Assembly: GCF_017963645.1 (NCBI RefSeq)
Contig: NZ_JAGMWN010000001.1
Location: 558,001 to 622,000, forward strand
Reading direction: 5' to 3'
DNA length: 64,000 nt
Source of the DNA: Marivibrio halodurans
GTDB lineage: Bacteria > Pseudomonadota > Alphaproteobacteria > UBA8366 > Aestuariispiraceae
The notes under the pieces are model-generated. The model did no database searches. It had not been told where the DNA came from and worked only from the letters and a program-made list of their open reading frames with translations. A program made the translations under genes and the position numbers. Of this stretch, positions 2,798 through 56,966 are shown in pieces (position 1 is the first letter of the stretch; every line of letters begins with the position of its first letter).

Positions 2798-3280
2798 ACC
2801 GTATTCCTTCATGACCTGCGCCTTCTTGCGCTGCCAATCGCGCTGCTTGATCGTCTCGCGCTTGTCGACCTGACGCTTGCCCTTGCCGAGACCGAGGGCG
2901 AGCTTGCAGATCCCCCGATTGTTGAAATAGAGCCGCAGCGGTACGAGCGTATAGCCACCCTGCTTCGCCGCCCCCAGGAACTTGTCCCGCTCCCGCTTGT
3001 GCAGCAACAGCTTGCGCGCGCGTTTCGGCTCGTGCTGGAACTTCGCCGGGGCGTTCGGGTAATCCCCGATATGGACGTTGAAGAGATACATCTCCCCGTC
3101 CTTCGGCCCGGCATAGGCATCGGACAGATTCACCGTCCCCCGGCGAAGGCTCTTCACCTCCGTGCCGAGGAGTTGGAGGCCGGCCTCGACCTCCTCCTCG
3201 ATCTCGTAGTCGAACTTGGCCCGCCGATTGACCGAAATCGTGCCGGTCGAGGTCAGCGTGCTCCGTTTCTTCTGAGCCAT
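2795..3280 (-). CDS. smpB: SsrA (tmRNA)-binding protein SmpB
   Basis: The 161-residue product matches SmpB along its length: SVNRRAKFDYEIEEEVEAG, LLGTEVKSLRRGTVNLSDAY, and the basic C-terminal tail DKRETIKQRDWQRKK that inserts into the mRNA channel. SmpB delivers tmRNA to stalled ribosomes for trans-translation. It lies 46 bases downstream of dapA on the same strand, so the two are probably cotranscribed. The last codon before the stop is followed directly by the tip of palindromic element A, which provides the TAG. No ssrA gene is visible in the window. Confidence 0.97.
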   Translation of the reverse strand: MAQKKRSTLTSTGTISVNRRAKFDYEIEEEVEAGLQLLGTEVKSLRRGTVNLSDAYAGPKDGEMYLFNVHIGDYPNAPAKFQHEPKRARKLLLHKRERDKFLGAAKQGGYTLVPLRLYFNNRGICKLALGLGKGKRQVDKRETIKQRDWQRKKAQVMKEYG

Positions 3281-3326
3281 ATCGTCCTCCGGTCGCCCGC
3301 GCGGGCCCCGGCCGGGCGCGTGGGCG

Positions 3327-4214
3327 TCAGATCAGCGCGACCTGACGCAACGCGTCCTCGACCTGGCGCTTGCTGGCATCCGCGATCTCGGTAAGCGGCA
3401 GGCGCGTGCGGCGCGTCGCCTTGCCGAGCAGTTCGGCCGCGTATTTCACCGGCCCCGGCGAGCTTTCGCAGAACAGCGCCGTGTGCAACGGCAGCAGCTT
3501 GTCGCGAATTTCGACATAGGTTTCCATATCGTTCTGCCGCCACGCATTGTGAAGACGCGAGCAGAGATTGGGCGCGACATTGGACGTGACCGAGATGCAG
3601 CCATGCCCGCCCTGGCCAAGGAAGGCGCCGATCGTCGCATCCTCGCCCGAGAGCTGGGAGAACCCCGGCCCGATCGCGACCCGCGTCTTCAGCGGACGGG
3701 TCAGATCGTTGGTCGCGTCCTTCACGCCGACGATCGTGTCGAAATCCCGTGCCAGACGCGCCATCGTCTCGACCGACATGTCGATCACGCTGCGCCCGGG
3801 GATGTTGTAGATGATGATCGGAATATCGACCGCCTCCGCGATCGCCTTGTAGTGCTGATAGAGCCCTTCCTGCGTCGGCTTGTTATAATAGGGCGTGACG
3901 ATCAGCGCGGCGTCCGCGCCGGCGGTCTTGGCATGTTCGGTCAGCCAGATCGCTTCGCGGGTGGAGTTGGACCCCGTGCCGGCGATGACCGGCGCCTTGC
4001 CTTTCGCGACCTCGATGCACAGCTCCACCACGCGGCAATGTTCCGCGTGGCTGAGGGTCGGGGATTCGCCCGTGGTCCCGGTCGGGATCACGGCCTCCGT
4101 CCCCTCCTCGATCTGCCATTCGACGAATTTCTGGAAGGCGGCCTCGTCGACATTGCCTTCCTCGTCCATCGGCGTGATCAGGGCGGTCATCGAGCCCGTG
4201 AACATCGGTGTCAT
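3327..4214 (-). CDS. dapA: 4-hydroxy-tetrahydrodipicolinate synthase
   Basis: This 295-residue class I aldolase condenses pyruvate with aspartate semialdehyde in the lysine/diaminopimelate pathway. Visible family marks are PTGTTGESPTLSH (the TT pair of the proton relay), IIIYNIPGRSVIDM (Tyr of the triad) and IVGVKDAT (Schiff-base Lys). The frame extends to 4247, but ATG at 4214 gives the family-length start MTPMFTGSMTALITPM and is preceded by GGAGA at a good distance. The gene is divergent from the lytic transglycosylase gene at 4585 and upstream of smpB. Confidence 0.97.
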   Translation of the reverse strand: MTPMFTGSMTALITPMDEEGNVDEAAFQKFVEWQIEEGTEAVIPTGTTGESPTLSHAEHCRVVELCIEVAKGKAPVIAGTGSNSTREAIWLTEHAKTAGADAALIVTPYYNKPTQEGLYQHYKAIAEAVDIPIIIYNIPGRSVIDMSVETMARLARDFDTIVGVKDATNDLTRPLKTRVAIGPGFSQLSGEDATIGAFLGQGGHGCISVTSNVAPNLCSRLHNAWRQNDMETYVEIRDKLLPLHTALFCESSPGPVKYAAELLGKATRRTRLPLTEIADASKRQVEDALRQVALI

Positions 4215-6591: not shown

Positions 6592-9500
6592 TCACGACCC
6601 TTTCAGCGTAGCCAGTTCGTCCCGCGTGGTGTTCAACTGATCCGTCGTCAGGATCAGGCGGCGCCCCAGATCGCGGGTCATCTCGAAGGAGAAATAAGGG
6701 TCCTGGCGCGCCAGTTCGGTGAAGACCTCGCGATTGAGGCGCAACGCCGTGGTCGGCCGCAGCGCCCGCACGGTGGCCGAGCGTTTGGCGTCGTTCAGCA
6801 GGGCCAATTCTCCGACCAGCCGGTTTTGATCAAGGGTGAAGAGCACCTTCTCCGTCGCCCCCTCCCCGACCAGGACTTCCGCCTCGCCCTCGAGGATGAC
6901 ATAGGCGGCGTCGCCGTCATCGCCCTCGCGCATCAGGATCTCGCCGGGTTCGTAATGCTTACGCTCGCTGGTGAAGGCCAGGAACTTGAGGCGCGTCGGA
7001 TCCAGATTGGCGAACAACGGCAAATGCTGGAGCGCGCGCGCCTCCACCGCCAGGGCCGCGTCCTCCCCACTCCCGTCCTCCCCACTCCCGTCCTCCGGGG
7101 AGGGCGTCTCGGCGGTCTCGGGGGCCGCCACCGGCGATGCCCCGCCCTCACCCCCGACGCGTTCCTCCGTCACGCGGCCGTTACGGATGCGCAGCACCTG
7201 CTCCACCTCGATCCCTTCCGGCGGGGCTCCGCCGACGGCGATCACGGTCGCGCCGCCCGCGGCCTCGCGCACGGCCGGCATGATGCGCGCGCGCGCCTCC
7301 GCGTCCAGCGCGCTCATCGGATCGCTCAGGATCAGGATCGCCGGACGCTTCACCAGATTGCGCACGAGATTGAGCTTCTGGCGCTGTGCGCCCGACAGAC
7401 GTCCCCCGCTGATTCCGACCTGGAAGTCGAAGGCCACGCGCACGATGGCGCGGCGCAGATCGAGATCGTCGCACAGCTCCGCCACCACCGCCTCGACCCG
7501 GTCGGTGGCGTCCGACCGGCCATGAACGATGCGGCCGAACAGAATATTGTCGAGGATAGTGAGCCCGCGATTATAGCGTGCGGGATCGAAGGGCTCGACC
7601 TTGCCGCCGGGCTTGAAGACCTCCGGGTTCTCCGCATGCAGGGTCCGGCGCAAGTCGACCAGGGTCGCCTGCATCGCCTCGTCGATCAGGCCGAGGCGAT
7701 GGCGCTGCACCACCAGCTTGAAGGGCAGGCCCGTGATCTGTCGCCGTTCCTCGTCGGATAGACCGCCCCCTTCGTATCCACCCTTCGCCTTGCGCACCAT
7801 GACCTTGAGGTCGGGCAGCAGATCCTCGTCGATGAAGCTGTATTGCTCGAAGAAGGGATGGCCGGGCGGCAGGTCCTTGAACAGCTCGACCATCAATTCC
7901 GCGCATTTTAGGCCGATCTCGTAGAATTTCGCGATCAGACCGTGACGCTCCAGCAGGTCGCGCACCACCGGGTTCTCGTGCAGCCGGTCGAAGGCCCATT
8001 CCGGCACCGTGGGACGCCCGAACAGGATGTTCCCGGCGACGGAGGAATAGGTGTTGTAGCGTCCCATGTCGTAGGTCTGGACCAGATCGTCGAAGCCGCG
8101 CTCCGCCAGCACCTCGCCGACGTGCCGGCGCGCGGTCATGACCCGTTCGGCAAGGTCCGCCCGTGCCTCCGGATCGATCGTCTGGCGCAGGCCGATGGAG
8201 TACATGTCCTCCTCCATCTCCACCACGCGCAGCAAATCGACCGCCCGCTCGGTCAACGCCTCCCGGTCACGCACGCCGGCCATGGCATAGTCGGTCCAAT
8301 CCCGCGTCGGATCGAACGGGCTGTTGCCGGAGGCTTCGGCCTCCTCGATCTCGCGGCGGCGGGTGTCGTCCTCGCGCTCCTCCTCCGGATCGGGCGGACG
8401 GCGCTGCAGGCCGATGAACATATTGGCCGCGATGGTGCCGTTGAAGAAGGCGGGCTCGCCCGTGGCATAACCGATGCGCGCGCCCGTCACCCCCTCATGC
8501 AGCGTGGCGATATCCCGGTCCCCCACCCTGATCCGGCCGGTGGAGGGAGTCAGCAACCGCGCCAGCAGCCGGCCGACTATTTCCCGGGCCATGCCGCTGG
8601 TGGCGATCACGGCCGTCGTGCCGCCGGCCTTCAGCGTGAAGCTGGCGCCGTCGATCACCCGCGTGCCGTCCTCATCCGCCCAGGTCAGGCTGGACGCCTG
8701 GATGTCGCCGTCCAGCGCCGGCTCCTCCGTCGGCCGGCCTTGCTGCAAGTCCTCTTCCAGCATGCCCGGCGGCGCGAACTGGCCGATCAACTGGTCGTAC
8801 TTGATGCGCGCGTCGGCGAGGCGCTGATAATAATCCAGCAATTCCTTCCAAGGCGCCGCCAGATCCTTGTAGGCCGCGAGCGCGGCCACCAGCGCGCCGA
8901 AACTCAACTCCCCCTGGATCACCAGATAGCCACCGATCGCATAGAAGAAGAAAGGGGTCAGTTGGTTGATGAAGTTGTTCAGGAACTTCATGAAGAACTT
9001 GCGCTGATAGATCTCGAAGCGCACGTCGAAGATCCGGCCGAGACGCCGCGAGATATCCGCCAGCACGTGGCCCACATGGTCGTGCGCGCGCACGTCCTGA
9101 ACCCCCAGCGCGATCTCCCCCACCCGGTTGGAGAGGGAGCGCACATGCTTCACCCGCTCCTTGCCGAGCAGGTTCACCTTGCGCTGCAATTTCGGAATGA
9201 CATAGCCCTGCACCGGAATCAGCGCGAAGGCGGCAAGGCCGAGATAGGGGTCCTGCGCGAACATGAAGGCCATGATCGTCAGGAAGGTGCCGCCCTGGAA
9301 CGCGATCAGCGCGAAGGCGTCGCCGAAGAAACCGCCCAACGGCTCGACCTCGGCCGTCACCATGGTGACGATCTCGCCGGACGATGTCTTCTGGAACTGC
9401 GGTAACGGAAAGCGCAGCGTGCGCGCGACCAGCACGAAGCGGAGCCGGCGCAGCAACCGCTCCGCCATCACCCCCTTATAGGTGTTGATGCGCATCTTGA

Positions 9501-46507: not shown

Positions 46508-47675
46508 CTTCCAATCCACGCCCCTGCGTGAGGGACGACCCGGCGGCGGCGCGGTCTTGCCGATCGCGAGGTGGTTTCAATCCACGCCCCTGCGTGAGGG
46601 GCGACGAGCGGGTCAAGGCGGCCGAGCGCGCGGCGGCCGTTTCAATCCACGCCCCTGCGTGAGGGGCGACTTGTCATTGCGCGCGCTCCTCCCACTCAAA
46701 ATTCGCGTTTCAATCCACGCCCCTGCGTGAGGGGCGACGTGTAGCGGCCGTTCATCGCCAATTTGACGTTGTCGTTTCAATCCACGCCCCTGCGTGAGGG
46801 GCGACGAGCTATTCTGCGGTACGGCGGCGGTGACGTTGTCGTTTCAATCCACGCCCCTGCGTGAGGGGCGACTCGCCAACAAGGAAATCCATTTCGGCGA
46901 CAGCGACGTTTCAATCCACGCCCCTGCGTGAGGGGCGACTATATGCCTGCTCTCGGGTGTTGATGATTCCGTTGTTTCAATCCACGCCCCTGCGTGAGGG
47001 GCGACGGTGTAGGCCCGGGTCTCCGGGTTGTAGTTCGTCGGTTTCAATCCACGCCCCTGCGTGAGGGGCGACCCACCTTGCCGGTTGTTATGTTGCGGCG
47101 GTATCCGTTTCAATCCACGCCCCTGCGTGAGGGGCGACCGGCGATCAAGGGTCTGGCGCAGGCCCGGTTTGCCGTTTCAATCCACGCCCCTGCGTGAGGG
47201 GCGACCGTCGGATTGCCGTAGCGGTCGGCCAAAACCAGCCAGTTTCAATCCACGCCCCTGCGTGAGGGGCGACCCGCCGCGTCAGGCGTCGCAACGCGCT
47301 CCAACCGGTTTCAATCCACGCCCCTGCGTGAGGGGCGACCATGCGCCGGGTGATCGCATCGCCCAGCACATCGCCGTTTCAATCCACGCCCCTGCGTGAG
47401 GGGCGACACCGCGTCACGCGGGCCAGAGCTTCGCGTCCCCGCGTTTCAATCCACGCCCCTGCGTGAGGGGCGACCTCGCCGCCAATTCGTCCTTTAGCGC
47501 GTTGGCGGCGTTTCAATCCACGCCCCTGCGTGAGGGGCGACCCGGCCGCCCGCGCTGGATCGATCCGCGCCGGGACGTTTCAATCCACGCCCCTGCGTGA
47601 GGGGCGACCCCAGCCGCTCGGCATGGTCCTGCAGGCGGGTGAGGTTTCAATCCACGCCCCTGCGTGAGGGGCGAC
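46508..47675 (-). CRISPR. CRISPR array 1 (type I-C repeat, 18 repeats, 17 spacers)
   Basis: Eighteen 32 bp repeats at 46508, 46574, 46639, 46707, 46774, 46841, 46908, 46974, 47041, 47107, 47174, 47242, 47308, 47376, 47443, 47510, 47577 and 47644, with spacers of 33-36 bp. In the crRNA sense (minus strand) the repeat starts GTCGCCCCTCACGCAGGGGC and ends GTGGATTGAAAC, the I-C handle. The leftmost repeat has three changes (positions 5, 29, 32), marking the old, leader-distal end. The leader is therefore at the right, next to cas2. The perfect 7 bp stem has a T9-A15 closing pair. Confidence 0.98.
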
Positions 47676-47885
47676 GGCCCTAACGGTAACTCCATGGAAA
47701 AGAAGGGACAATATGGCGTAATTCGCGAACCGCGAGGGCCATGGCATCCGCGACATGGGATGTCTCCGTGCACGGGTCTATTTTCTAAACATGTACAATA
47801 AGTTATCCGAATCGCGAACCACCCGGGGAAATCCCGCGCGCTTGGGGTTCGCGCACCCGCACGAAAGGCGATGCGGGAGAAGGCG
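47676..47885 (-). promoter_or_regulatory. Leader of CRISPR array 1
   Basis: This ~210 bp gene-free region lies between the cas2 stop and the first repeat and is read leftward. It shares three blocks with the leader of array 2: a 41 bp palindromic block at 47813-47853 (38 of 41 bases identical, with CGCGAACC and GGTTCGCG arms), GGTTCGCG-rich sequence at 47721-47731, and TTACNNNTAGGGCC touching the first repeat (47676-47689). It should hold the array promoter and integration signals. Confidence 0.85.
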
Positions 47886-48176
47886 CTAGAGGATCAGCGG
47901 GCCCGACAAGTCGGTGGCGGGCTTGGCGCCGACATGTTCCACCCGGTCGCGCCCATTGGCGCCGAGGCGGTAGTAGCGGAGACTATCCTCCGCCGGGTCG
48001 ATCAGGTCTTCGAGCCGCGCCTTGAGGAGCACCCATTGCGCCGGATCGACCTCGATCTCGAACACGGAATACTGAACGCGCTGCCCGAAATCACGGCAGG
48101 CCTTGGCGATCCGCCTAAGGCGCCGGGCGCCGTCGCCCTTGTCCGTGCGCACATCGTAGGTGACAAGCATCAACAT
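47886..48176 (-). CDS. cas2: CRISPR adaptation protein Cas2
   Basis: The 96-residue protein has the Cas2 ferredoxin fold pattern: MLVTYDVRTDKGDGARRLRR (conserved Asp of the YDV motif), CRDFGQRVQYSVFEIEVD, and LIDPAEDSLRYYRLG. Cas2 normally bridges two Cas1 dimers during spacer integration. It is last in the minus-strand cas operon, 39 bases after the cas4/cas1 remnant, and followed by leader 1. With no intact cas1 in view, it has no visible partner. Confidence 0.95.
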   Translation of the reverse strand: MLMLVTYDVRTDKGDGARRLRRIAKACRDFGQRVQYSVFEIEVDPAQWVLLKARLEDLIDPAEDSLRYYRLGANGRDRVEHVGAKPATDLSGPLIL

Positions 48177-48215: not shown

Positions 48216-48689
48216 TCAACTCCAGAACCAGGGCGGATAGTCATCGATATCCCCGCGCAGATGGCGCGAGAGAAGCTGCGCCTGAAGATAGGGGACAAGC
48301 CCGAGGGGCGCCTTCTCCTCCAGGAAGTCGTGGCGCCGTTCCTCGGACTTCCAGTCCTGCCAGGCCGTCAGCACGGCGCGCTCGTCCCCCTCGGCGCCGG
48401 GGTCACCGCCGCCGGGCCCACCGCCACAGGGGATGAATTCGACCCGGTCCGCGACGCCGGTCAGATTCAGCGCGGCGCTGGCCAGCGGCAGCGCGGTGAC
48501 GACCCGGCAGCCGCCGCGCAACCGTTCGCCCGGCTGGTCCGATGCCTGATGCAGCACCCGCCCCTCGGCGGTCAGTCGGTTCTCCACCCAGACCCGTTCG
48601 AGATGGATCAACGCCGCCTGCCGCAGGCAATAGACCGCATGCTGCAGGGCCGAGATCGGGATCGGCGCGTCCCCCTGCTCCATCGCCAT
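48216..48689 (-). pseudogene. Cas4-Cas1 deletion fusion (remnant of both adaptation genes)
   Basis: The 157-residue ORF starts after GAGGAGG at 48689. Residues 1-87 are the N-terminal half of I-C Cas4 (ISALQHAVYCLRQAALIHLE, GRVLHQASDQPGE, NLTGVADRVEFIP), keeping the first Cys, the His and the Asp of the RecB-like site. After a Gly-rich junction (88-103) residues 104-157 are the C-terminal end of I-C Cas1 (VLTAWQDWKSEE, LGLVPYLQAQLLSRHLRGDI, DYPPWFWS). Lost are the Cas4 E-x-K motif, the Q motif and three C-terminal Cys, and all three Cas1 metal ligands. It occupies the exact place of cas4-cas1 between cas7 and cas2, so an in-frame deletion of roughly 1.2 kb is inferred. Confidence 0.88.
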
Positions 48690-48732
48690 GGGCCTCCTCC
48701 TCGGCACGGTGCCGCCGTCCGGCGCGGCCGCG

Positions 48733-49698
48733 TCAGGCCGGCTCTAGTATCTCCACCCCGTCGGGCAGGTCGGACCGGTCGACCTCCACGTCATAGTCGG
48801 CGTAGCGCCGCGCCGGGGGATAGTTGTTCAGACGTCCGTCGATCGGATGCACCTCGCCGTCGATCATGCGCCGGACCCGGACCCGATCGAAGAGGTCATG
48901 GGCCTTGGCGTTGCCCAGGGGGTTGTCATGCTTGAAGACGATCAGGCGCCGGCTCGTCATCTCGCCGCGCGCGGCGGAGCGGTCATGCTCGAACATGGTG
49001 CCGAGCGCCTCGAACAGCGTCGCCAGATCGTCGTCGGAGAAGCCGGTCCGTATCGCCAGCTTGGCCGAGATGAAGCCGTGCGCGCGATAGAGCCCGTAGG
49101 GCACGATATGCTTGCGCCCCATGGTGCGGTTGTCGTGCCGTTCGTCGGCGGCGTCGCCGTCGCCCCCCTCGCCGTCCCGGCGGGCCTTCTTCTCCTTCGC
49201 GGTGGTGGCCGCCATGCGGGTGATGGACACCTCCAACGGCACGATCGGTTCGGCCGAGGTGGCGAAGGAAAGCTGCACCGGCCCGCGAAGCTGGCCGCAA
49301 TTGATCCCGGTCCCCATGACCGCGCCGAAGGTGCGGATGTCGAAGTAGTTCCCGCACATCCATTTGGTAAGCTCGGCCGCCTCGTCGTCGGATTTCGGAC
49401 TCAGCTTCTCCGCCTTGGCGACCTTGTCGTCGTCCGGCCGCACGGCGGCATAGGCGCGACGATGCGCCTCGTTCAGGATCGCGCCCTCGCGGACATAGAT
49501 CGCATGCCCGGGGTCATCGCTCCGGGCGAGTTCGACATAGTTGCGGATCTTGCGCTTCAGGCTGACGTCGCTGACCAGGCCGCGATTGGTCTCGGGGTCG
49601 AGGCGCGGCAGGTTGCCCGCGTCCGGGTCGCCGTTCGGATTGCCGTTCACGACATCGAACAGAAGAACGAAATCATAGCGATGGGCGATGGCGGTCAT
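48733..49698 (-). CDS. cas7: Type I-C Cascade backbone protein Cas7 (Csd2)
   Basis: The 321-residue protein starts HRYDFVLLFDVVNGNPNGDP, the hallmark of Csd2/Cas7c, followed by TNRGLVSDVSLKRKIRNYVE, IRTFGAVMGTGINCGQLRGP and KHIVPYGLYRAHGFISAKLA. Several copies line the crRNA spacer in Cascade. It overlaps cas8c by 4 bases (ATGA). A Lys/Arg/Asp-rich loop (EKKARRDGEGGDGDAADERH) lies near residue 170. It appears intact. Confidence 0.96.
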   Translation of the reverse strand: MTAIAHRYDFVLLFDVVNGNPNGDPDAGNLPRLDPETNRGLVSDVSLKRKIRNYVELARSDDPGHAIYVREGAILNEAHRRAYAAVRPDDDKVAKAEKLSPKSDDEAAELTKWMCGNYFDIRTFGAVMGTGINCGQLRGPVQLSFATSAEPIVPLEVSITRMAATTAKEKKARRDGEGGDGDAADERHDNRTMGRKHIVPYGLYRAHGFISAKLAIRTGFSDDDLATLFEALGTMFEHDRSAARGEMTSRRLIVFKHDNPLGNAKAHDLFDRVRVRRMIDGEVHPIDGRLNNYPPARRYADYDVEVDRSDLPDGVEILEPA

Positions 49699-51497
49699 TG
49701 CGGGGCCTCCGTTTCGAGCGTCTCTTCCGGGGTTTCTTCCGCCCCGGAGGATTTATTGAAGAAGGCCTGCCGCTGGTGATAATAGCCCAGCGCGAACAGG
49801 CCCTGATCCGCCAGCGTCAGCGTGCGCGGAAAGGCATCGGGGCCGGGATCGATATTCTCCATGATCTCCCCGATCATGCGCTCCAGACGGTTCCGCCACC
49901 CGGCGTGTTTCTTGCCGAGCTTCGAGAGATGCGGCTGCACCCCCTTGTTGAGCAGCGGGAAGACCTTGCCCGGCTGCGCCGAGGCGGCGCCGTAGTAGCG
50001 GTCCTTGATGGTGGCGTTGAGCTTGCCGAGCGCATCGGTCTGGGCGCGCTCATAGACGGCGAACAGACGGCCGAGCAGATAGCCGATACTGGCGTTGTCG
50101 GGGTCCAGGGCCACGGGCACGTCCTCCTTTCCAAGGGTTCCGATCAGAACGGATTTCACCATGCCGGCGCGTTCGGCATTGACCACGCCGTCGGCCCGGA
50201 TGCGCATCAGGACCGCGGTCATCAGCGGCAGCGGATAGCGCGCGCCGGTCAGGATGGCGCGCATCCATGCCCCGGCCAGATTGGGCGGGATGTTCTCCGA
50301 CTTGCGCTGCACGGCGGTTTGGATCAGATAGCCGAAGAGGCCCGTATTGGGGTTGCGCGGACCGGGCTCGACGGCGATATCGCGCAGGAACCGGCCGTAA
50401 TTCGCGGCGATGGCGCCGAAATCATCCTCCACCCAGAAACGGACCGAGATGCGCCCGGCATTGGGCGCGAGGCCGAGCACGTGGAACCGCACGCCCGCGT
50501 CCAGGCCGGGCGCGAAGTCGGCGATCGGCCGGCCCGCGCGCAGACGCTCCAGGATCGGCGCGACCCGTTTCGCCTGGGTCGCGTCGTCGACCCCGGCGAC
50601 CATGACGCCGAAGGCCGCCTCCGCCAGGTCGGCGGCCTCCGCGTCCGATCCGTCGGCCCAGAACACGGTGGAGGCATCGCCGACCTGCAGCCGGTGGCGG
50701 GACCCCGTCTCCAGGAACTTGTTCAACACCGCGCCATAGGCGAAGGCCGCCCGCGCGCCGACCGGGGCGTTGCCGCCCTGCTCATGCCCATAGGAGGTGA
50801 AGGCGTCGAGATTGAAGGAGACCAGCGACGCCCCCGAACTCTGCGCGCCCCACACGCCCTTGACCACCGGGTGCAGGCGCGCCGCCGGCCCCTTCTCCCC
50901 GGTCACCAGACAGATCGCGCCCGAGTCATCCGTATTGGACGCGTCCGTATGGGGCGCATCCGCGCCGGCGATCCGGGAGGCCCAGAGATGGCGCGCCGCC
51001 GGCCGGTCGTGCAGGAAACGATCCAACCATTCCGACTCCAGGGCGAAGACGATGTTCTGGTCCAGCATCTCCTCCGGCCAGCTCCATCGCGCGAAGCAGT
51101 CCGGCGTCCACAGGTCGAGGAACAGCGACAGGGCGCGCAGCCCCTCGTCCTCCGTCGCGGCCAGGGCCTCCCGATGGAGCGTCTTGAACGCCTCGTGCTC
51201 CCGCTCCAACCGCTTGCCCGGCCCGGCGCTGACGCCCAGCGCATAGGCGGTCTTGTCCCACAGGAAGTTCGGGGCGATGCCGGAGGTCCGCTTACCGCCC
51301 GCCGGGACCGCCAACCGTCGCGGCTTCGGCTTCTTGCCCTGGAAATCCCGCAGGTCGCGCGGCGTCCCCGACGGCATGCCGTCGGGGCCCAGGATGACGG
51401 CATGGGAGATATTCTCGATCGAATAGCCGAAGGGCGGAACCAGCCCCCGTTCCTCCATGCGGCCATAGGCCCGCGTCAGGGCGGCCAGCACGCTCAT
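49695..51497 (-). CDS. cas8c: Type I-C Cascade large subunit Cas8c (Csd1)
   Basis: The 600-residue protein has the Csd1 N terminus (LAALTRAYGRMEERGLVPPF, GYSIENISHAVILGPDG), NFLWDKTAYALGVSAG, CLVTGEKGPAARLHPVVKGV and LVSFNLDAFTSYGHEQG, then RISVRFWVEDDFGAIAANYG. Cas8c recognises the PAM and starts R-loop formation. An internal start giving a Cas11c-like small subunit from the 3' end is known in I-C systems and may exist here but is not marked by an obvious strong ribosome binding site. It overlaps cas5 and cas7 by 4 bases. Confidence 0.95.
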   Translation of the reverse strand: MSVLAALTRAYGRMEERGLVPPFGYSIENISHAVILGPDGMPSGTPRDLRDFQGKKPKPRRLAVPAGGKRTSGIAPNFLWDKTAYALGVSAGPGKRLEREHEAFKTLHREALAATEDEGLRALSLFLDLWTPDCFARWSWPEEMLDQNIVFALESEWLDRFLHDRPAARHLWASRIAGADAPHTDASNTDDSGAICLVTGEKGPAARLHPVVKGVWGAQSSGASLVSFNLDAFTSYGHEQGGNAPVGARAAFAYGAVLNKFLETGSRHRLQVGDASTVFWADGSDAEAADLAEAAFGVMVAGVDDATQAKRVAPILERLRAGRPIADFAPGLDAGVRFHVLGLAPNAGRISVRFWVEDDFGAIAANYGRFLRDIAVEPGPRNPNTGLFGYLIQTAVQRKSENIPPNLAGAWMRAILTGARYPLPLMTAVLMRIRADGVVNAERAGMVKSVLIGTLGKEDVPVALDPDNASIGYLLGRLFAVYERAQTDALGKLNATIKDRYYGAASAQPGKVFPLLNKGVQPHLSKLGKKHAGWRNRLERMIGEIMENIDPGPDAFPRTLTLADQGLFALGYYHQRQAFFNKSSGAEETPEETLETEAPQ

Positions 51498-52177
51498 CGC
51501 AGGATCTCCGGCGCGCCGGGTTTCGGCACGTCGAGGATGCCGTCCCTCAACCGCGCGCGGAAGAACATCGGCGTCCGGCCGTTCGCATGGTCGATATCAT
51601 AGAGCATCAGGCCGAGGTCCCGATCCCCGACCCCGCCCGCGCCCCCGCCCTTGCCCGGCGGGACCGCCGCGTCGGGCGCCAGCAGGCTCACATTGGCCGG
51701 AAACTCCCGCGTGCCGAGATAGGGTTGATGGAAGCACTGCCCGCGCCGGGCGCGCCGGTTGAAGATGTCGAGATGCTTGCCTTCCGTCTCCTCCGGCCCG
51801 GCCGCGGGCGTCAGGTCGAAATGCGCCTCGATGACATAGGCGACATCGACCAGGATGGTCGCCGCGCGCTGCTGCCGGTCCTCCTCGACGCGCTGCTCCA
51901 GCCCGTCCAGCGACCCGGCCTTCATCGCGGCGCGCACCTTGCCCATCGGGACCTTGTGGCCGACCTCGTTGCGGCGGATGGTCTGGAAGCGGATCGGCTC
52001 CAGCACATGGATGCGGTCGATGGCCCAGGCGATCGCCGGCTTCCAGTGGATCGCCTCCAGGATTCCGCGCGCCGCCGACGGCGTCATCACGTCGTAGCTG
52101 ACCCGCTCCACCTTCAATTCCGGGCGGGTGAAGCAGGCGCGCGCGCCCGACACGTGAATCCTGACGCCGAATGCCAT
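51494..52177 (-). CDS. cas5c: Type I-C crRNA endonuclease Cas5c (Cas5d)
   Basis: The 227-residue protein begins GVRIHVSGARACFTRPELKV, followed by SYDVMTPSAARGILEAIHWK, AIDRIHVLEPIRFQTIRRNE and later CFHQPYLGTREFPANVSLL, all typical of Cas5d. In I-C systems Cas5 replaces Cas6: it cuts pre-crRNA within the repeat to leave the 11 nt handle ending ATTGAAAC and then stays in Cascade. It is the first gene of the core operon; GGGAGGGG lies upstream of the ATG. Array 2 and its leader separate it from cas3. Confidence 0.95.
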   Translation of the reverse strand: MAFGVRIHVSGARACFTRPELKVERVSYDVMTPSAARGILEAIHWKPAIAWAIDRIHVLEPIRFQTIRRNEVGHKVPMGKVRAAMKAGSLDGLEQRVEEDRQQRAATILVDVAYVIEAHFDLTPAAGPEETEGKHLDIFNRRARRGQCFHQPYLGTREFPANVSLLAPDAAVPPGKGGGAGGVGDRDLGLMLYDIDHANGRTPMFFRARLRDGILDVPKPGAPEILR

Positions 52178-52546
52178 CCGATAAAGCCCCTCCCATGCCC
52201 GTGACGAGGATGCTAGCCATTGCGTGCCTACCGGGCAAGGATCACGTTTCGGTTGCGGGCTCCAATGTCAATGCGTAAGGGGTGGCGCCGCCCCCTGCCC
52301 CTTGATTTCAATACCGGGATGAAGCCAGGATTGACGATGGGTGGGATGGGCAGGAAGGCCGCCCTCCGCGAACCCCAAGCGCGCGGCTTTTCGCCGGGTG
52401 GTTCGCGGAACACCGCAAGCTATTGGAAATCGTCAATAAAGCACCGGCATCCCCGCGCCGGCCGAGGCAAGGAGCCCCCTCGCCCGCCGAGGTTCGCGGA
52501 ATCCTCCGCATTGCGCCAACATTTTCATGGCCTTACAGATAGGGCC
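52178..52546 (+). promoter_or_regulatory. Leader of CRISPR array 2 and divergent cas5 promoter region
   Basis: This 369 bp gene-free stretch must drive cas5 leftward and array 2 rightward. A 41 bp palindromic block (52367-52407), GGTTCGCGGAAT (52491-52502) and TTACAGATAGGGCC directly before the first repeat (52533-52546) match leader 1. The first two blocks lie ~139 and ~44 bp from repeat 1, against ~137 and ~45 bp in leader 1. Confidence 0.85.
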
Positions 52547-54250
52547 GTCGCCCCCCACGCGGGGGCGTGGATTGAAACGGCCAAGCCGTCATCGCGGAGA
52601 AGTGGCTCGCCTGGTCGCCCCCCACGCGGGGGCGTGGATTGAAACCCCGACGCCACGGCCGACGATCTTTTGCGCCGGTGTCGCCCCCCACGCGGGGGCG
52701 TGGATTGAAACAGGACCCGTTCTGGCGCGATTGCGAGGCTGGGCGGGTCGCCCCCCACGCGGGGGCGTGGATTGAAACCGGCGCGGGCGGGATTTGGTCA
52801 CCACGGGCGACGGGTCGCCCCCCACGCGGGGGCGTGGATTGAAACGCCCAGGCTCCGAAAGGTGTCGGCCATCGTCCGGAGTCGCCCCCCACGCGGGGGC
52901 GTGGATTGAAACGGCCAAGCTGTCCGCCATGCTGGCGGAGGCGGGGGTCGCCCCCCACGCGGGGGCGTGGATTGAAACCCGGCGGCGGTTGCGCGATATC
53001 CGGACGCGCAAGATCGTCGCCCCCCACGCGGGGGCGTGGATTGAAACTGGCGATGCGTTCCAAGGACTCGCATATCCGCGCGGTCGCCCCCCACGCGGGG
53101 GCGTGGATTGAAACGATGAAGGCAAGGCGGAAGTTCAAGAGCGATACGGTCGCCCCCCACGCGGGGGCGTGGATTGAAACATGCGCACGATATTGCCAAA
53201 TGGGCAAATACATGGCGTCGCCCCCCACGCGGGGGCGTGGATTGAAACCGCGTGCCCGAGGCCAATCCCCGCGAGCGTGCCCGTCGCCCCCCACGCGGGG
53301 GCGTGGATTGAAACCGCGACCGCGCGCCCACGGTGCAGCTGCAATTTGTCGCCCCCCACGCGGGGGCGTGGATTGAAACAGGGGTATAGGAACCCTCCCC
53401 TATCGATCGGGAAAGGGCGTCGCCCCCCACGCGGGGGCGTGGATTGAAACCGACGGCACATTGGCCGCATAGTCAGGCGGGCTGGTCGCCCCCCACGCGG
53501 GGGCGTGGATTGAAACGTGCCCGCGTCGATGGCGCGCCGCCCGCGTTGCACGTCGCCCCCCACGCCGGGGCGTGGATTGAAACACCGCGAACGGGACGAA
53601 GGTGGGCGAAAGCATCCCGTCGCCCCCCACGCGGGGGCGTGGATTGAAACAAGGCAGACTTCCTGCGCCAGGAGAAACCACCGGGTCGCCCCCCACGCGG
53701 GGGCGTGGATTGAAACAAGATCCTGATCGCCTGCAACCAGCGTCCGGCGAGTCGCCCCCCACGCGGGGGCGTGGATTGAAACATTGAGTGGGTCGAGACG
53801 GCGGTCTGCGATCTCACGTCGCCCCCCACGCGGGGGCGTGGATTGAAACAGGCCCGCCTCCGCCGCGATATCGGCGGTGCGCAGGTCGCCCCCCACGCGG
53901 GGGCGTGGATTGAAACCGGATACGCGGCGTCGATTACGTCGTCGCGGCCCCGTCGCCCCCCACGCGGGGGCGTGGATTGAAACGCGGCAGGAGACGCCGC
54001 GCACATGGCAGGCATCCTGTCGCCCCCCACGCGGGGGCGTGGATTGAAACTATCAATGCACGAGCGCGGGCACGAGCGCGGCGGCGGTCGCCCCCCACGC
54101 GGGGGCGTGGATTGAAACAGTCGTTCCTTGGCCATGTCGATCTGGCCCTTCGCGTCGCCCCCCACGCGGGGGCGTGGATTGAAACCATCGAGTCCCCGCG
54201 AGCGTCCAGTATTACCAAGTCGCCCCCCACGCGGGGGCGTGGAGCCGATA
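52547..54250 (+). CRISPR. CRISPR array 2 (type I-C repeat variant, 26 repeats, 25 spacers)
   Basis: The 32 bp repeat starts GTCGCCCCCCACGCGGGGGC and ends GTGGATTGAAAC. Repeats start at 52547, 52614, 52680, 52747, 52814, 52881, 52947, 53016, 53083, 53149, 53217, 53283, 53348, 53419, 53485, 53552, 53619, 53685, 53751, 53818, 53885, 53952, 54019, 54087, 54154 and 54219. Spacers are 33-39 bp. The last repeat loses its final 7 bases (reads GGAGCCGATA), marking the leader-distal end, so transcription is on the plus strand. The repeat at 53552 has a single G-to-C change at position 15. The array lies between cas5 and cas3 and antisense to the cas operon. Confidence 0.98.
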
Positions 54251-54425: not shown

Positions 54426-56696
54426 TCACAGGATCGCGGAGAAGGCGCCGGGGTCGGCCTCCCAGATCAGGCCCGTCTCGCGCGTGTAAAGCGGTTCGGC
54501 GCGGGAGTCGTGGCACGTGGAGAGCACGGCGAACTGGTCCGCGCGCTCGCGGCCGCCGGCGAAATAGATGGCGCCAAGGTCGATGAGCCGTTGGCGCTCC
54601 CGTCCCGGCGGCTGGACGATCCAGGTTTGCAGCCGCCGGGCCAGCGCGCCGGACGAAATGCGCGGATTGTCGAGATCCGCCAGGATCTCGGCATTCGCCG
54701 GATCGGGGATGATGACCGGCGCGCCGGTATCCGCCACCATCCGGAAGTCCTCCGCCACGGACCGATAGGCGAAGGACGGGCCGCCGATATCGAGCTTGAA
54801 CCGATCGAGCAGGCCATGCCGGTCCAATGCCTCGGGACCGCGGGTCCAGTAGAGTTCGCGGAAATAACGCTCGACCGTCTCCGGCGCGGTCCAGTCGGCG
54901 CCGCCCTCGATAAGGCGCGCGAAGATCTCCGCGTTGCGTCGCAACTCGCGCGGCGCCGGGTGGTCGGGGGCCCGGAAGACGGTGACGATGCTGTCCCCGG
55001 CCGCGCGCTTGCCTTCGCGGTTGCAGCGTCCCGCCGCCTGGACGACCTGTTCCAGCCCCGCCTCCGCGCGCCAGACGTGGGGGAAATCGACATCGACCCC
55101 GGCCTCGACCAGGGAGGTGGCGACGACCCGGCAGGGGCGTTCGCCCTCCAGGCGCGCGCGCACCTCGGCCAGGATGGCGCGGCGATGGGCGGCGCATTGC
55201 CGGGTGGAGAGATGGATCAACCCGTCCAGCGCCGCCGCCCGCCCCGCCCGGTACAGGGCCAGCGCATGGGGCCGCGAATTGACGATGACCAGGCCCTGAT
55301 CGGTTTCGGCCAGGGCGTCGATCAGCGCCGCGTCGTCCATCGGCCCGGCATGGCGGAACCGGGTACGGCGCAGGCGCCGGGCAAGGTGCGCCGGGTCCGG
55401 GGCCAATTCCTTGCCCGCCGTCTCCAGGCCCATCAAGGGATCGGCGGTGAAATGCCCCCGGTCCAGGGCCGGTTGCGTCGCGGTGCACAGCACGAGGCTG
55501 GCACCATAGCTGCGGACCAGTTCGCGCAAGGCCGCGACGCCGGGTTTCAGCAGGCCGAGCGGCAGGGTCTGCGCCTCGTCCAGCACGATGACGGCCCCGG
55601 CCAGCGCCTGAAGCTTGCGGCAGCGCGCCGGGCGGGCGGCGAACAGGCTTTCGAACAGTTGGACATGGGTGGTGACGACGACCGGCGCGGCCCAATCCTC
55701 CATCGCCAGACGCAGCTTGTCGCGGGCGGCGCGGGCCTTCCAGCCCTGGCCGTCCTGCTCGATCGCGCAATGATGTTCCAGCACCACGTCCTCGCCCAGC
55801 ACTTCCTTGAAGATCGCGGCGGTCTGATCGATGATCGAGGTGAACGGAATGGCATAGACGATCCGCCGCAGCCCGTGGGCCCGGGCATGGTCGAGCGCGA
55901 AGCCGAGCGAGGTCAGCGTCTTGCCGCCGCCGGTCGGCACCGTCAGCGTGAAGCTGTCCGGCGGTCGGTCCGCCTGGGCCCGAACATGCTTCAGCACCTC
56001 GCGCCGCAAGTCGTCCACGGGCCTCTTCTCCCGCCCAACGGCTATCCCGGCCATATGGGCGTCGAAGCGCGCGCGCAGATCGGGCAGGATATCGCCCAGG
56101 GCCGGCCAGGCGCGATCGGGCGTCCGCCCCTCGATCGCGCTGTAATAGGCCTCCGTGTCCTTGAAATCGGCATCGACCAGGGCGGAGAAGAGCATGCGAC
56201 CGAGGAAGGCGAGCTCGAACGCCACGCGGTTCCGGCCGCTCGCGGTGAAGCCGCGCGGCGAAATGCCGGCGGTGTCCGGCGCGATCTCCTCCCGCCAGCT
56301 TGGGTCGAGACGATCCTCGACGGCATTCACGCGATCCCGCAACCCGCCGAGCGCCGCGTCCGTGTCGGGCAGCCCGGCATGATGCCCCGCCACCGCATGC
56401 GCCAGGAGCCGCGCGACGAGTTTCTCCTCGCCACTCCCCGCCGCATGCCAAAGCCACGCGGCGCCGGCGATCGCATGCTCCGGGCCCGGTCCCTGCCCAC
56501 GGATATAGGCCTGGAACGCCGGATCGTACTTACCCAGATCGTGGAGCAGGCCACCCAATGCCGCCGCCGTCTCGCCGCCGAATGGCCTGGCCAGATCGGC
56601 CGCGTGACGCGCCGTTCCCTCTAGATGCTCCCGCAAGCCGTGCCATGCCGCGTCCGGGTGGGACTTGGGCGGGGAATGGGCCGCGAATTCGGTCAT
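54426..56696 (-). CDS. cas3: CRISPR nuclease-helicase Cas3 (HD + helicase, type I-C)
   Basis: The 756-residue protein has an N-terminal HD nuclease (HLEGTARHAADLARPF, LGGLLHDLGKYDPAFQAYIR, HAVAGHHAGLPD) and a DExH-type helicase. The helicase has Walker A TVPTGGGKTLTSLGFALDHA, DEAQ in VIVLDEAQTLPLG, motif III-like LVLCTATQPAL, and motif VI VQAAGRCNREGKR. Cas3 degrades DNA bound by Cascade. The ATG at 56696 is used (TEFAAHSPPKSHPDAAWHGL follows); the longer frame start at 56783 has no support. It keeps the cas orientation but is separated from cas5 by array 2, so it needs its own promoter. Confidence 0.95.
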   Translation of the reverse strand: MTEFAAHSPPKSHPDAAWHGLREHLEGTARHAADLARPFGGETAAALGGLLHDLGKYDPAFQAYIRGQGPGPEHAIAGAAWLWHAAGSGEEKLVARLLAHAVAGHHAGLPDTDAALGGLRDRVNAVEDRLDPSWREEIAPDTAGISPRGFTASGRNRVAFELAFLGRMLFSALVDADFKDTEAYYSAIEGRTPDRAWPALGDILPDLRARFDAHMAGIAVGREKRPVDDLRREVLKHVRAQADRPPDSFTLTVPTGGGKTLTSLGFALDHARAHGLRRIVYAIPFTSIIDQTAAIFKEVLGEDVVLEHHCAIEQDGQGWKARAARDKLRLAMEDWAAPVVVTTHVQLFESLFAARPARCRKLQALAGAVIVLDEAQTLPLGLLKPGVAALRELVRSYGASLVLCTATQPALDRGHFTADPLMGLETAGKELAPDPAHLARRLRRTRFRHAGPMDDAALIDALAETDQGLVIVNSRPHALALYRAGRAAALDGLIHLSTRQCAAHRRAILAEVRARLEGERPCRVVATSLVEAGVDVDFPHVWRAEAGLEQVVQAAGRCNREGKRAAGDSIVTVFRAPDHPAPRELRRNAEIFARLIEGGADWTAPETVERYFRELYWTRGPEALDRHGLLDRFKLDIGGPSFAYRSVAEDFRMVADTGAPVIIPDPANAEILADLDNPRISSGALARRLQTWIVQPPGRERQRLIDLGAIYFAGGRERADQFAVLSTCHDSRAEPLYTRETGLIWEADPGAFSAIL

Positions 56697-56966
56697 CCGA
56701 TGGGCTCCGCCACGGCGGCGCGAGGGGAAAGCGACTGGTCCGCACGGTCCGTGATCGGCATGCCCCTTCGCCCCTGGCCCCAAGCGTTGCGTCCATCCCG
56801 ATCGGCGCGACCGTCAAGGTTCCGCCTATCGGCCCCTACGACCGCGCCCCGTCCGATCGACGGTCTCGGCTCGGATGAACTTTCCGGCCTTTTGAATATG
56901 AAGGCAAGCACTCCGGAAAAAACACCCGCGAGCCGTGTCCGTCGAATGGCGCGGCAGCGACCCTCT

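Follow-up and report, generated by a model that had tools for sequence, protein, structure and literature searches.

The type I-C CRISPR-Cas locus described here lies in a 64,000-nucleotide stretch of the Marivibrio halodurans genome (contig NZ_JAGMWN010000001.1, positions 558,001 to 622,000), referred to below as the window, and retains cas2 at full length as well as cas4 and cas1 in the form of fragments only. The best explanation, in which we place considerable confidence, is that a single deletion of ~1.2 kb produced a I-C locus without its own spacer acquisition and with interference kept. In a standard operon of the order cas3-5-8c-7-4-1-2, such an event would have taken out the second (3') half of cas4 together with roughly 290 codons from the start of cas1. 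What is left is read as one ORF; the ExK motif and the three C-terminal cysteines of Cas4 are missing from it, and so is the catalytic region of Cas1. Lacking these elements, the locus should be unable to acquire spacers by means of its own proteins; crRNA processing and interference should work, since Cas3, Cas5, Cas8c, Cas7, the arrays and the leaders are all present. The remnant is most likely dead, and the I-C system most likely disabled for adaptation and, by prediction, competent for interference.

The remnant ORF (48216 to 48707, minus strand) is flanked by cas7c and cas2, contains no frameshifts and no stops, and encodes 163 aa from a GTG at 48707 or 157 aa from an ATG at 48689. The latter start was used in the initial annotation, and the ribosome binding site reported there as kept is indeed present, as GAGGAGG immediately 5' of this ATG. 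The same annotation described half of Cas4 joined to the ~54 C-terminal residues of Cas1 and proposed looking for Cas1 homology in the tail as a check; both NCBIfam and PDB comparisons place the last 53 residues of Cas1c there. Residues 110-162 of the remnant correspond to positions 288-340 of the 340-position profile TIGR03640 (cas1_DVULG; E 2.4e-18, 66.4 bits), and residues 16-91 to positions 1-77 of the 180 positions of TIGR00372 (cas4; E 2.8e-7, 30.5 bits). These scores fall far under the whole-protein cut-offs of 385 bits for TIGR03640 and 65 bits for TIGR00372 as is to be expected of fragments. Pfam returned a sub-threshold Cas4 match (E 0.12) and no Cas1 match to the remnant. The best two PDB sequences were the Cas4 and Cas1 chains of a single structure, 8d3l: the Cas4 chain (8d3l_I) matched at E 5.7e-16 over a stretch running to Cas4 residue 104, and the Cas1 chain (8d3l_A) at E 5e-13, with remnant residues 110-162 on chain residues 290-342 of 343. 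In DNA-level alignments, the Cas4-derived part (48429 to 48680, minus strand; also TIGR00372) aligned to residues 10-93 of Zymomonas Cas4 and the Cas1c-derived tail (48222 to 48380, minus strand; also TIGR03640) to residues 291-343 of Zymomonas Cas1c. The Gly-rich junction, on the same strand, therefore falls at about 48381-48428, in agreement with the ~48378-48430 given earlier. The break point is ambiguous inside it: the Cas4 loop there differs in length among relatives, and no position could be assigned to a micro-homology at the break.

The extent of the missing segment was judged against 16 loci from plasmids and genomes (L011-L014, L062-L073). In 15 of these, long cas4, cas1 and cas2 matches were found in the order cas7-cas4-cas1-cas2, and in one (L072) none of the three. 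A seventeenth locus (L074, from G387), left out of this count, has just a weak cas7c match and a Cas1 divided between two frames (2852-3888). Measured between the same anchors, the Rhizobium sp. Q54 and Zymomonas loci each carry 1,214 nt more than the window and the G148 locus 1,218 nt more; L063 carries 1,280 nt extra, a figure measured with different anchors. ExK is the nuclease motif of Cas4, and the C-terminal Cys cluster is likewise a Cas4 feature; in the alignments, the relatives' Cas4 proteins have their VEYK motif and three C-terminal cysteines past the break. The active-site residues named for the B. halodurans I-C system in the available part of that report, Cas4 K110 and Cas1 H234 (PMC6519985), fall outside the stretches matched by the remnant (Cas4 to 104; Cas1 290-342). 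The earlier statement that the Cas4 E-x-K, its Cys cluster and the Cas1 catalytic residues are gone thus holds, all of these lying in the missing part by alignment to relatives. Its description of the deletion as in-frame calls for caution: cas4 and cas1 are in different frames in Rhizobium and Zymomonas and in the same frame in G148, and the single open frame of the fusion may thus have arisen by a chance of one in three.

The remainder of the locus is largely complete. Profile matches from NCBIfam ran almost end to end and over the cut-offs for cas2 (47886 to 48176, minus strand; full length, with its own ribosome binding site), cas7c (csd2; 48733 to 49698, minus strand; TIGR02589, 360.5 bits against a cut-off of 182.25), cas8c (csd1; 49695 to 51497, minus strand; TIGR01863, 540.5 against 218.65) and cas5c (51494 to 52177, minus strand; TIGR01876, 170.9 against 85). 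The cas3 gene (54426 to 56783, minus strand) encodes HD and helicase domains, the former over its cut-off (TIGR01596, 105.4 bits against 43.45) and the helicase core under its own (TIGR01587, 87.8 against 102.45); alignments of the window Cas3 to those of relatives span up to residues 17-784. CRISPR array 1 (46508 to 47675, minus strand) lies 3' of cas2 and comprises 18 repeats and 17 spacers, its distal repeat (46508-46539) being degenerate, and leader 1 (47676 to 47885, minus strand) occupies the interval from cas2 to this array. CRISPR array 2 (52547 to 54250, plus strand) comprises 25 spacers and 26 repeats, one of the latter (near 53552) being a variant and the last (from 54219) being degenerate, and is separated from the start of cas5 by leader 2 (52178 to 52546, plus strand). 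The two leaders, which both end in TAGGGCC, have in common a 41-nt block (38 positions identical) that lies 178 nt from the first repeat in one and 180 nt in the other. A core of this block, GCGAACCYCAAGC, recurs in 8 of the 25 further loci scanned, always within about 50 nt downstream of cas2, and both leaders therefore look like real I-C leaders. Together with the profile matches, the shared block upholds the earlier claim that cas2, two leaders and the interference genes persist.

The initial annotation did not mention the placement of array 2, which lies between cas3 and cas5 and runs antiparallel to the cas genes. The aligned ends of cas3 and cas5 are 2,248 nt apart here; across 20 other loci in which these two genes are neighbours, the distance never exceeds 423 nt. 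Repeats are uniform within each array, except for the end repeat of each and the one variant in array 2. Two positions distinguish the array 1 repeat (T/A) from that of array 2 (C/G), and on visual inspection they would be partners in the repeat hairpin.

Retention of interference is expected from results on the I-C system of Xanthomonas oryzae. According to the available portion of that study, no influence of Cas1 and Cas2 on pre-crRNA processing could be detected, and depletion of Cas4 or of Cas1/2 apparently blocked neither crRNA processing nor target degradation, in a passage that is oddly worded (PMC8406640). Two points count against it: the sub-cut-off score of the Cas3 helicase core, and a spacer that nearly matches a resident prophage-like gene, which is also what an inactive or inhibited system might show. 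This spacer, 1.17 (46540 to 46573, minus strand), matches a tail-fibre-like gene (L101 near 8192-8225; G000 C17:113190-113224) with 2 mismatches of 34, at positions 4 and 10, and the target is flanked on its 5' side by TTC, which is the reported I-C motif in the parts of two papers at hand (PMC7913775, PMC8406640). It is leader-distal in array 1 and thus presumably the oldest spacer there. The prophage-like region may coexist with the system through the early mismatch, through an inhibitor or because interference is inactive. The match has the form of seed-blunted self-targeting (position 4) or of an escape variant. Among the 40 of 110 candidate places in the genome that were scored for each array, spacer 1.17 gave the only match for array 1, and array 2 gave none outside the arrays beyond E 9e-4 (29-30 nt, 93%). 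Direct comparison of the spacers with L101 and with the type II locus L008, in which array 2 was represented by 23 stretches (one of them double) with the last one left out, yielded one further near-match, with 8 mismatches. The leader-proximal spacers 1.1 and 2.1, two of the 42, had no exact match in viral contigs.

The frequency of this state was estimated from two evenly drawn samples of Pseudomonadota, one at class and one at phylum level, searched with the cas7c (TIGR02589) and Cas1c (TIGR03640) profiles. Over the cut-offs, cas7c was found in 13 of 385 genomes and Cas1c in 11 of 385 in the class sample, and in 29 and 24 of 398, respectively, in the phylum sample; these counts are uncorrected for relatedness. 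The window's genome and G148 occur in both cas7c lists, giving a union of 40 genomes that includes every genome with Cas1c over the cut-off (G650 was scored as positive, though its match spans positions 1-279 only). No Cas1c over the cut-off was found in six of the 40 (the window's genome, G203, G566, G439, G476 and G500), or in 5 of 39 if G439, whose contig stops right after cas7, is set aside. In the stretches fetched from G203 and G476, cas4, cas1 and cas2 were not seen; the G476 contig stops 3.4 kb past cas7, and cas3 was not seen in it either. The cas7 gene of G566 precedes a Cas1 piece (residues 200-344) and a cas2 with a frameshift. In G500, cas4 breaks off after its first ~39 codons and continues out of frame as cas1 from about residue 96-115, so a deletion join between cas4 and cas1 is not unique to the window. 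A Cas1 tail with cas2, or part of it, was also found in G692 and on a Paracoccus plasmid, with no cas7c in the stretch seen. These proportions indicate that loss of I-C adaptation is recurrent and are at odds with the initial annotation's view of the state as uncommon. Other subtypes without adaptation modules are named in the available text of PMC12669027, which does not include I-C loss.

The age of the deletion was approached through the rate of change of what is left. A tree of nine loci (the window and eight relatives) was built with its topology taken from cas5, cas7, cas8 and cas2 (987 sites). The window branch contributes 0.092 of the tree length for these genes and 0.079 for the remnant (121 sites), or 0.067 for its Cas4 part and 0.085 for its Cas1 part; on segments this short, the test excludes only long unconstrained drift. 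The 15 relatives agree completely at 11 columns of the Cas4 part, all of which the remnant keeps, and at 11 columns of the Cas1 part, where it departs from them twice, once at the junction and once by an R to W change; other rows show 0 or 1 such changes, save the divergent L071 with 4 of 13. The two Cas1-tail changes reflect mild relaxation or chance. Since the remnant is not accelerated, either the deletion is recent or the remnant is still under constraint; on these sequence comparisons a recent deletion looks like the plain reading, and a constrained protein would give the same picture. The earlier suggestion of a recent knock-out is therefore consistent with the branch-length test but finds no sister strain carrying the locus, a direct before-and-after comparison being limited by the fact that, of 14 family genomes, the window's is the only one with cas8c.

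The initial annotation also offered the reading that the fused ORF is a small protein kept for a role of its own, for example as a Cas2-binding or regulatory stub, which we regard as improbable. The open frame and strong ribosome binding site of the remnant agree with it, as do the lack of acceleration, the unaltered invariant Cas4 columns and the recurrence in other loci of Cas1 tails with some cas2, but a young deletion accounts equally well for the facts cited. A homologue of the same architecture was not found: of 98 genomes, the three that match are the window's own and G075 and G087, in which the two parts are separate, the 13 other genus and family genomes have no match to the fusion protein, and none of 40 plasmid records matching the remnant covers 80% of it. 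The one relative found in a scan of genome contigs is a planctomycete Cas4, and none was found in viral contigs. The analogous deletion in G500 is out of frame, and a low-confidence AlphaFold2 model of the remnant gave a pLDDT of 58.6 and a pTM of 0.31, from an 11-row alignment too shallow to say much. No positive evidence for another role emerged.

Four other loci have likewise lost the 5' portion of cas1 and keep the C-terminal part of Cas1 beside a complete or partial cas2 (L091 9875-10614; L092 9602-10752; L095 9959-10508; L016 8896-9417). A broader form of the retention idea is that a Cas1 tail and cas2 are left repeatedly when I-C adaptation is lost because the tail is useful, whether as a stub that binds Cas2 or as a leader that couples translation to cas2, the window ORF then being a streamlined and still translated form. 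The instances that may be cited for it are the window, G566, G500, the orphan pairs of G692 and Paracoccus, and the published B. fragilis I-B loci. Matches to the N-terminal part of Cas1 alone also occur (e.g., G448 C24 and G731 C97), and we attach as little weight to this proposal as to the preceding one.

No further Cas4 was found in the genome and no I-C Cas1 outside the window; the only other cas1 is of type II, on contig 17 (TIGR03639, 235 bits), beside cas2 and a Cas9 of 1,182 aa, in a system that is II-C-like by gene content (L008 / L001, G000 contig 17). The check for a second cas1 proposed earlier thus turned up no I-C copy, in line with the locus being frozen, but it brought out a type II Cas1-Cas2 pair that the initial annotation had missed, and the cell as a whole is therefore not necessarily frozen. 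Continued in-trans acquisition by the I-C arrays with the help of this pair is nonetheless very unlikely. The array accompanying it on contig 17 has a constant period of 66 nt, which implies 30-nt spacers if the repeat is 36 nt, as II-C repeats usually are, and the I-C spacers measure 33-39 nt, leader-proximal ones included. The sole protospacer found has the I-C flank TTC, a point that says nothing of recent gain because its spacer is leader-distal. On the other side, the accessible text on Flavobacterium columnare describes a VI-B array that acquires spacers with the II-C Cas1 although the leaders and repeats differ (PMC8092290), and P. aeruginosa I-C lineages with a common frameshifted cas1 have dissimilar spacers, for which the authors, in the part of the paper at hand, invoke an unknown mechanism (PMC7913775). 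An assembly artefact, in which intact cas4 and cas1 exist in the genome and 1.2 kb was dropped by the assembler, is equally hard to credit: the junction is GC-rich, and a collapse between repeats would leave one copy in the window, so that the window alone is no test of it, but the junction is interior to a 998-kb contig, no further I-C cas1 or cas4 piece was found on other contigs, a similar deletion is present in a second genome (G500), and in six relatives (the window's own lost sequence being unseen) exact direct stretches shared by cas4 and cas1 reach at most 10-11 nt overall and 6-8 nt near the break, so short that collapse between repeats is unlikely.

By the count of five in 39 informative Pseudomonadota genomes, a I-C system that is armed but has ceased to learn looks like a regular occurrence, and this overall count outweighs the single case in importance. 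The locus itself offers a natural case of an adaptation-disabled I-C system, with its two leaders and its interference genes in place, in a cell that also contains a nameable target; it is of use for studying the lifetime of stored immunity without updating and takeover by a co-resident type II Cas1.

The closest known systems are the I-C loci of Zymomonas mobilis pZA1002, a Rhizobium sp. Q54 plasmid and G148, which share the gene order of the window and 67-75% protein identity to it in cas2 and cas7 (lowest 66.9%). The N-terminal part of their Cas4 and the C-terminal part of their Cas1 align with the remnant; unlike the window, they have complete cas4 and cas1 genes, and their cas3-cas5 gap is under 390 nt, which leaves no room for a long array there. 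On the Rhizobium sp. Q54 plasmid 7 (L011 2893-7999), cas3 and cas8c are each annotated in two pieces, which suggests that its interference genes are frameshifted while cas1 and cas2 are apparently complete, a mirror image of the window. The G500 I-C-like locus (L092) resembles the window in its cas4/cas1 deletion join and retained cas2, and differs in that the join is out of frame and far more of Cas1 is kept. In the type I-G Cas4-Cas1 fusion (PDB 7mi4; NF049935), which we take to be full-length and catalytic, Cas4 is N-terminal to Cas1 in one chain, as in the remnant; the remnant scored 37.2 bits against NF049935 (Cas4g/Cas1g) over positions 2-83, far from the 560-bit cut-off of this 546-position model. 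Searches of the openly accessible literature, supplements apart, brought up no description of a Cas4-N/Cas1-C deletion fusion in a I-C system.

Among published cases, some lineages with the pKLC102-borne I-C system of P. aeruginosa likewise have, in the available text, an inactivated cas1 (Leon et al. 2021, PMC7913775), the result of a frameshift and not of a cas4-cas1 deletion fusion as in the window. An anti-phage function is reported there for a P. aeruginosa I-C system, and the same portion of text does not link it to the cas1-frameshifted strain (PMC7913775). The truncated loci of B. fragilis, as far as the accessible account goes, have lost cas4 and kept cas2 together with 252 of the 1014 bp of cas1, without its 5' end; they are of type I-B and, unlike the window, have lost cas3, cas7 and cas8 as well (PMC5704556). 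Set beside these systems, the locus is an adaptation-disabled I-C locus of a kind already known, and its fused remnant is probably non-functional.
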